Shown: positions 56,657 to 57,414 of the stretch, in pieces
Layout of the letters: each line of letters begins with the position of its first letter
Numbering within the stretch: position 1 is the first letter of the stretch
NCBI RefSeq assembly: GCF_003663885.1
Contig: NZ_RCCE01000002.1
Location: 186,001 to 250,000, forward strand
DNA: 64,000 nt
Source of the DNA: Litoreibacter meonggei
GTDB lineage: Bacteria > Pseudomonadota > Alphaproteobacteria > Rhodobacterales > Rhodobacteraceae
Direction of reading: 5' to 3'
Translations under genes and position numbers: made by a program
The notes under the pieces: generated by a model
The model's input: the letters and a program-made list of their open reading frames with translations, nothing else
Databases searched by the model: none
Told to the model about the DNA's origin: nothing

Positions 56657-56900
56657 AGGGCATCCTGTCTTCGGTCAGATTTCGTCTGTGCTTAAGTGAG
56701 CGTCCGCGCCGCCAAGGGCAACCCCGCAAGCTAACTCGCCGCAATCGTTTTCGATCTGCACACTCTCTGAGCAATTCACCAACTCTGGTGGTGGCGCAAA
56801 TTTCGCATCACGAAAATGTCATAATTTGACTGACGTAAGGTAACAAAAACAAAGTGTTAAGCCATGCATTTGCTGCATAGCAGCATTGTAAATCTATCTA

Positions 56901-56928
56901 TTGTTGCGGCGCAGCATTTCCCTAAATT
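56901..56928 (+). promoter_or_regulatory. candidate promoter of the DUF1127-sRNA transcript
   Basis: TTGTTG (56901-56906) and TAAATT (56923-56928) are separated by 16 bases and would start RNA near 56935, about 60 bases before the DUF1127 ATG. In R. sphaeroides the homologous locus is driven by RpoH-type sigma factors; this sequence could be read as such or as a weak housekeeping promoter. The wider 56657-56993 region contains no gene. Confidence 0.35.
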
Positions 56929-56993
56929 GAAGGCAACAGAGACAAGGGCGTCAGATCGCTGACAGAGAAGCCCTAGACTGAAAGGTAAATGAA

Positions 56994-57206
56994 ATGGCTT
57001 ACACAACGAGCATCCGCACCGCACCGACCCTGATTGAGCGTCTGGTTGCATTCAAGAACGACTTGGCTGAGCGCCACGCGAAAAACCGCTTGTACCGCGA
57101 AACCTTGGACGAGCTGCAAGCCTTGTCCAGCCGTGAACTGGCTGACCTGGGCATGAGCCGCGCCAACTTGAAGTCGATCGCACATGAGGCGGCATACGGA
57201 AAATAA
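56994..57206 (+). CDS. ccaF1: small DUF1127 protein, CcaF1-like
   Basis: A 70-residue basic protein. The C-terminal part (YRETLDELQALSSRELADLG, then MSRANLKSIAHEAAYGK) is the DUF1127 motif. In R. sphaeroides the homologue CcaF1 (RSP_6037) is an RNA-binding protein that assists maturation of the CcsR sRNAs encoded directly downstream. Here too CCTCCTCCC hairpins follow at 57216-57414, which supports the assignment. GAAAGG precedes the ATG. The symbol rests on synteny, not on a search. Confidence 0.85.
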   Translation: MAYTTSIRTAPTLIERLVAFKNDLAERHAKNRLYRETLDELQALSSRELADLGMSRANLKSIAHEAAYGK

Positions 57207-57215
57207 GTTTGCGTT

Positions 57216-57414
57216 CCCGGCTTTCCTCCTCCCTTAGGCCGGGTTCGCTTTAGTGGCGGCACCTTCCTCCTCCCTTAGGTGCCGCTACTAACCAGATCGG
57301 AGCAACTTCACCTCCTCCCGAGGTTGCCCGAAATACGGCGATGATCTTCCTCCTCCCTGATCGGAGCCGCACATAAGAACGGTGATGCACCTCCTCCCGC
57401 ATCACCGTTTTTTT
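57216..57414 (+). ncRNA. CcsR/cuckoo-type sRNA array: five hairpins with CCTCCTCCC loops
   Basis: Five stems each display CCTCCTCCC in the loop, at 57225, 57266, 57311, 57349 and 57390 (spacing 41, 45, 38, 41). Stems are CCCGGC/GCCGGG (57216-57243), a 14-bp stem with one G-U (57251-57290), GCAACTTC/GAGGTTGC with one U-G (57302-57327), GATC within CGGC/GCCG (57336-57369) and an 11-bp stem (57378-57409). The loop is complementary to Shine-Dalgarno sequence. In R. sphaeroides, CcsR1-4 have this motif, follow a DUF1127 gene and are processed from its transcript under stress. The five loops probably give two or three mature RNAs. Confidence 0.85.
57378..57414 (+). terminator. intrinsic terminator formed by the fifth CCTCCTCCC hairpin
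   Basis: Arms 57378-57388 and 57399-57409 pair perfectly over 11 bp around a 10-base loop containing CCTCCTCCC; seven T residues follow at 57408-57414. The last sRNA hairpin thus doubles as the transcript end. Confidence 0.85.

Follow-up and report, generated by a model that had tools for sequence, protein, structure and literature searches.

A DUF1127 gene and an array of five anti-Shine-Dalgarno hairpins in Litoreibacter meonggei, with a conserved promoter element resembling LsrB/VtlR sites

A 64,000-nucleotide stretch of the Litoreibacter meonggei genome (contig NZ_RCCE01000002.1, positions 186,001 to 250,000; here called the window) carries a short DUF1127 gene followed by five tandem hairpins, each with the same nonamer in its loop. 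The locus is of the ccaF1-CcsR type already published and is known in kind. Two features go beyond the initial annotation of this DNA and are the parts worth following: the spread of array length in the Rhodobacteraceae, and a conserved promoter element, absent from that annotation, that resembles the sites of the LysR-type regulators LsrB and VtlR.

The DUF1127 open reading frame matches PF06568 with an E value of 7.2e-9 (Table 1). Its product is 93% identical to a protein of L. ascidiaceicola, five Litoreibacter loci head the list of matches, and a sequence search at E values up to 1 returned no solved structure for the protein. An Mrp/ApbC-type ATPase gene lies upstream on the opposite strand; downstream are an Lrp/AsnC regulator gene, also on the opposite strand, and a LysE-type gene. 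The first motif follows the DUF1127 stop codon by 18 nt. An exact scan found five copies of CCTCCTCCC, all on the forward strand and spaced 41, 45, 38, and 41 nt apart, and no exact copy elsewhere in the 64 kb on either strand; 100 shuffles of the window held a mean of 0.58 copies and at most 3. Positions 57207-57414 fold into five hairpins with one motif per loop (-95.2 kcal/mol, z -9.8), and none of 200 shuffles folded equally well. Together, the motif and fold shuffles rule out a chance origin of the array. Scan and fold agree with the initial annotation, which had described five stems with an identical loop 9-mer at intervals of 38 to 45 bases. Its reading of the last hairpin as an intrinsic terminator holds in part: the stem (57375-57412) runs into seven T residues and looks like a terminator, but the full motif is lost from this hairpin in two of six aligned Litoreibacter loci. 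Likewise, the terminator is a member of the array in the window, as had been pointed out, but this design is not fixed and had been outlined earlier for R. sphaeroides, in the portion of that literature available. Genome-wide there are 14 exact copies of CCTCCTCCC, 5 of them in the array. Three of the other nine sites were folded as candidates for further arrays, and this reading of the lone sites was rejected. At one of them (L008, around position 1500; C3:167023 of the genome), a lone CCTCCTCCC sits in a strong hairpin followed by TTTTT, away from any array.

Table 1. Features of the DUF1127-hairpin locus (positions in the window)
Feature	Position	Strand	Basis
Conserved 25-nt promoter element	56864..56888	+	Alignment, motif counts
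Putative -35, TTGTTGC, 37 nt past element start	56901..56907	+	Alignment, spacing (function putative)
Putative RpoH-like -10, CCTAAATT	56921..56928	+	Alignment, spacing
DUF1127 small protein gene, CcaF1-like, 70 aa	56994..57206	+	ORF, Pfam
Hairpin 1, CCTCCTCCC in loop at 57225-57233	57211..57248	+	Motif scan, fold
Hairpin 2, CCTCCTCCC in loop at 57266-57274	57250..57291	+	Motif scan, fold
Hairpin 3, CCTCCTCCC in loop at 57311-57319	57297..57331	+	Motif scan, fold
Hairpin 4, CCTCCTCCC in loop at 57349-57357	57336..57369	+	Motif scan, fold
Hairpin 5, CCTCCTCCC in loop at 57390-57398; T run 57408-57414; probable intrinsic terminator	57375..57414	+	Motif scan, fold
Rfam RF02344 (ar14) match, hairpins 3-5	57292..57414	+	78.1 bits, cutoff 58.8

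A covariance-model search, which had been proposed as a check, placed hairpins 3 to 5 above the cutoff of the Rfam ar14 model, and the first hairpins (57205-57335) gave a further match of 57.5 bits, under the cutoff of 58.8. The criterion for ar14 is CCUCCUCCC in every unpaired loop with stems that differ, and both are found in the window array. Homology to the R. sphaeroides ccaF1-CcsR locus, also proposed earlier, is supported by the upstream DUF1127 gene, the loop motif, the stems, the ar14 match, and the printed description. In the available text of that description, ccaF1 and CcsR1 to CcsR4 are cotranscribed from an RpoHI/RpoHII promoter, and the transcript, which has a Rho-independent terminator at its 3' end, is cut by RNase E with the aid of CcaF1, an RNA-binding protein (PMC10253847). 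The window locus shares with this CIN1-type system the short DUF1127 gene, the tandem hairpins, the same loop, and the 3' terminator, and its promoter may likewise be of the RpoH type; it differs in having five hairpins against the four CcsR RNAs of R. sphaeroides (PMC10253847), and its expression and processing are predicted. The accessible parts of the literature searched do not mention a LysR-type element for the R. sphaeroides locus. With NfeR1, the ar14 RNA of S. meliloti, the window array shares a covariance-model match above cutoff, identical CCUCCUCCC loops, unrelated stems, and an LsrB-type box upstream. NfeR1, as far as its description is available, consists of three hairpins transcribed from an RpoD promoter of its own, without a DUF1127 gene in the same transcript; the window array is preceded by a gene and by a putative RpoH-like promoter.

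Such arrays are widespread in the family. At E values up to 0.001, ar14 was found in 161 of 198 family genomes (above the cutoff in 25), and the 14 control genomes gave no match. A pair of motifs spaced as in an array was seen in 143 of the 198 and in 15 of 289 genomes of the class, 4 of these 15 belonging to the window's own family. For comparison we used 105 loci, mostly the best ar14 or pattern matches in the 198 genomes, a choice that may favor long, typical arrays. A further 37 loci were found via DUF1127, and the link to DUF1127 was therefore judged on the set of 105 only.

The arrays share a promoter element. Alignment of six upstream regions revealed conserved blocks, one of them holding TGCA-N6-GCAT (56865-56878 in the window), which is the form of the LsrB site given before NfeR1 in the available text of PMC10746234. 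This box occurs in 106 of 123 upstream regions, compared with 0.95 in shuffles and 0 in reversed sequence, and ATGC-N7-GCAT, the commonest inverted four-letter dyad, occurs in 105 of the 123. Alignment on the box brings out a conserved block of 25 nt, and within the window's copy positions 56874-56888 match the VtlR motif CAATGCAGCCATGCA (as quoted in the accessible part of PMC12595884), read as its reverse complement, in all but 2 of 15 letters. Of 142 loci, 104 carry the VtlR 15-mer with up to two mismatches, which none of 1420 shuffles does, and nine deviate from it at five letters. The 25-nt element was defined on the very loci where it was then counted, unlike the VtlR 15-mer and TGCA-N6-GCAT, which are taken from print. 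It scores at least 14 of 18 letters before 138 of 142 arrays, and shuffled regions reach 13 at most. The loci below 14 are G092, G097, L065, and L076. In 119 of the 123 regions, the distance between the element and a TTG, the putative -35, is exactly 37 or 38 nt. Only 80 of these 119 also have a -10-like match of the CCTATnTT type, nearly all 13 to 14 nt further on, and these matches resemble the RpoH1 consensus of S. meliloti, CTTGAA-N16-CCTATAT, in the portion of PMC8844928 available. In the window, the TTG and CCTAAATT stand at RpoH-like spacing, from which transcription would be predicted to start near 56935.

Of 197 family genomes, 102 carry the exact 25-nt pattern, in most cases a single time, and 95 lack it; the reversed pattern had no match in any listed genome. 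Thirty exact sites were fetched. At 26 of them, the 1.5 kb downstream hold at least two motifs; the remaining four comprise two sites with one motif, one close to the end of a contig, and one behind the LsrB-like regulator gene described below. The short LysR box was dropped as a genome-wide regulon finder because it is too common, with 183 sites in the window's genome versus 78 for the reversed pattern. The element goes with array and gene when the two separate. A second DUF1127 gene of the window's genome has the box about 125 nt upstream. Two other DUF1127 matches in that genome (L230, C2:317939, and L232, C1:900008; one under the Pfam cutoff) lack the element; they adjoin a divergent LysR-type gene. 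No comparable element was found at four Hyphomicrobiales DUF1127 loci: three had none, and the fourth had a partial match about 500 nt upstream.

To identify a candidate regulator, we worked through Hyphomicrobiales relatives, since the trxB neighborhood of the window's own genome yielded none. The trxB-linked LysR protein of the Hyphomicrobiales has one clear counterpart there (C1:197600-198502, 42% identical), with an E value of 2e-78 compared with 3e-34 for the next of 35 matches to the LsrB-like query. In the back-search, the best matches of this protein were trxB neighbors in two Hyphomicrobiales genomes, making it a reciprocal best hit. The regulator is present at 74 to 93% in six of six array-bearing Rhodobacteraceae, and 191 of 197 family genomes encode it at E values up to 1e-70; its N-terminal DNA-binding part is highly conserved. 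Its nearest solved structure, at 254 bits with the next at 116, is 9HH1, deposited as LsrB of Agrobacterium (PMC11975290). Unlike vtlR/lsrB, the gene does not lie beside trxB in the window's genome, so we call it LsrB-like only. It is followed by an element variant, a SorX-type sRNA gene (Rfam RF02784, 49.2 bits, cutoff 46.6), and then purL (L247:3101-4170; C1:197600-198669 of the genome). This arrangement resembles that of Agrobacterium, in which, in the available text, the vtlR gene adjoins those of the abcR sRNAs and its product activates abcR1 as well as the gene of a small protein (PMC7486931). In Brucella, VtlR is described in the accessible portion of PMC12595884 as controlling DUF1127 genes and AbcR2. 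As far as these sources go, the likeness to the VtlR/LsrB regulon of the Rhizobiales thus extends to the type of regulator, the box, and the targets, namely, DUF1127 genes and sRNAs with anti-Shine-Dalgarno loops; the differences are the Rhodobacteraceae host, a promoter that is also RpoH-like, and the location of the regulator gene away from trxB. One recent paper terms LsrB unique to the Rhizobiales, and in the literature searched, which covers the key papers in part, we found no statement of LysR control of such arrays in the Rhodobacteraceae.

We infer from these matches that the LsrB-like protein binds the promoter element. The pairing is a prediction from sequence, and the genome encodes many LysR proteins (the 35 matches above), two of them beside other DUF1127 genes, so that the element could instead serve another LysR-type protein or another regulator, its likeness to the LsrB/VtlR box being convergent. 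We regard this alternative as unlikely, although it is the most serious of those considered here: the element fits two separately published motifs, the leading LysR match outscores the one after it by a wide margin, and the exact element recurs 16 to 63 nt behind the LsrB-like regulator's own gene in 5 of 197 genomes (G036, G060, G061, G087, and G142).

Turning from the promoter to the hairpins themselves, we found that the stems are conserved as pairs. In the six aligned Litoreibacter loci, a standard pair is kept in 97.3% of pair cells compared with 28 to 47% with slid partners, the structure having been taken from the window, which favors it. The initial annotation had held that stems lacking compensatory changes in relatives would refute its reading; one pair with both sides altered was found in each of the five array hairpins. 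One covariation measure, further pair types, was not above shuffles (12 versus a mean of 13.1), and the other four were. Across 142 genomes, 924 of 936 exact motifs sit in predicted hairpins. Pairing of an arm with its own partner averages 8.9 nt; shuffling the arms lowers this to 3.7 and exchanging them between hairpins of one array to 4.2, with hairpins of one array not being mutually independent. Hairpins are gained and lost within Litoreibacter: two of its loci have one extra hairpin and a degenerate first loop.

The cuckoo RNA family of Reinkensmeier and Giegerich (2015) is said to consist of adjacent hairpins with a constant loop and variable stems, and the window array is alike in all three respects. 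Hairpin number sets it apart. Printed ranges, in the sections available, are two to four hairpins for the cuckoo family (PMC4504443), three or four for the Rhizobiales models, and two for an early R. sphaeroides transcript (PMC3927594). The five hairpins of the window exceed the cuckoo range, and we therefore file the locus under ar14 and the CIN1 locus type. In the loci from 105 family genomes (window included), exact motifs per array range from 2 to 26 with a median of 7, and 75 of the 105 have more than four; the fetched locus is secondary in some genomes (e.g., G092, G097, and G112), so copy numbers are lower bounds. The earlier remark that copy number differs from that in R. sphaeroides was right yet understated. 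We found no description of arrays longer than the printed ranges in the literature searched, with its partial coverage of the key papers. The longest array (L143:2382-3544 of G165, minus strand) is built of near-identical three-hairpin blocks, which suggests recent tandem duplication.

A range of this kind resembles a dosage device, and the identical loops might act mainly as a protein or ribosome sponge: much as CsrB titrates CsrA, they would bind and titrate one partner, whether the DUF1127 protein, Hfq, or ribosomes, in place of silencing individual mRNAs. The DUF1127 protein would come from the same transcript, and CcaF1 binds RNA, which would suit such a role. Still, a sponge leaves unexplained the two-copy arrays of 16 of the 105 genomes, some of which are secondary loci. 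In S. meliloti, moreover, mutation has shown that NfeR1 silences ntrB by base pairing of its CCUCCUCCC loops with the ribosome-binding site of that mRNA, the three seeds being redundant (PMC10746234, in the portion available), and flhR mRNA is a target of CcsR in R. sphaeroides (PMC8307010). We consider the sponge improbable and favor silencing of mRNAs by the loops.

A DUF1127 gene lies within 700 nt upstream of the array in 96 of 105 family loci. In seven Sulfitobacter and Roseobacter loci (L051, L052, L054, L059, L060, L077, and L078), the order is reversed, with a two-hairpin array and its T run preceding the DUF1127 gene, and separate promoter elements stand before the array and before the gene. 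That the array is mostly a 3' untranslated region stabilizing and terminating the DUF1127 mRNA, with the loop kept for a processing enzyme and no regulation in trans, is very improbable: the gap of 17 to 38 nt between gene and array in most loci and the TTTT within 36 nt past the last exact motif in 76 of 105 genomes would suit it, but 16 of 142 arrays have no DUF1127 gene within 700 nt upstream, and the element lies within 700 nt before 14 of these 16, which suggests transcripts of their own.

The model that we favor, and hold to be probable as a whole, is one of trans-acting hairpins under dual control. A stress-induced transcript would start near the predicted site, code for the CcaF1-like DUF1127 protein, and present in its 3' untranslated region five hairpins, each showing the same anti-Shine-Dalgarno loop. 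As in R. sphaeroides, RNase E, aided by the DUF1127 protein, would cut this transcript into small RNAs, and each loop, by analogy with NfeR1 and CcsR, may pair with purine-rich ribosome-binding sites of target mRNAs and block their translation. The stems would merely display the loop; needing only to pair, they could diverge freely while the loop stays, and the number of units would shift through duplication and loss. The promoter would join two inputs, the RpoH-type -35 and -10 and, upstream, the LsrB/VtlR-like LysR site. The layout of the locus, its fold, the covariation, the conservation of array and promoter element across the family, and the presence of the regulator gene are findings of this analysis. 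RpoH control, cotranscription, RNase E processing, RNA binding by CcaF1, and silencing by the loops come from print on relatives and would have to carry over to this organism. Counting against the model are the location of the regulator gene away from trxB, the commonness of the short box, the genomes that lack the exact pattern, the Hyphomicrobiales DUF1127 loci with no comparable element, the -35 regions that lack a -10-like match, and the paper that terms LsrB unique to the Rhizobiales; in addition, DUF1127 proteins may, according to print, act on proteins rather than RNA.

We give an even chance to the broader reading that an LsrB/VtlR-like regulator and RpoH drive the array across the Rhodobacteraceae, that the circuit of regulator, DUF1127 protein, and sRNA is an older, alphaproteobacterial one, and that the array is an evolvable dosage dial whose anti-Shine-Dalgarno loops are tuned in number by tandem duplication. 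If control by both inputs holds across the Rhodobacteraceae, then the Rhizobiales circuit would be that older one. Work on R. sphaeroides CcsR RNAs names RpoH as the input, and work on the Rhizobiales names LsrB/VtlR; an element that fits the site of a regulator hitherto investigated in pathogenic relatives and in those associated with plants, standing before nearly all arrays in a family in which nearly all genomes encode the regulator, would, if this reading is true, unite both fields. The arrays of 2 to 26 loops, in turn, offer a natural series on the effect of repeat number in a multisite small RNA.
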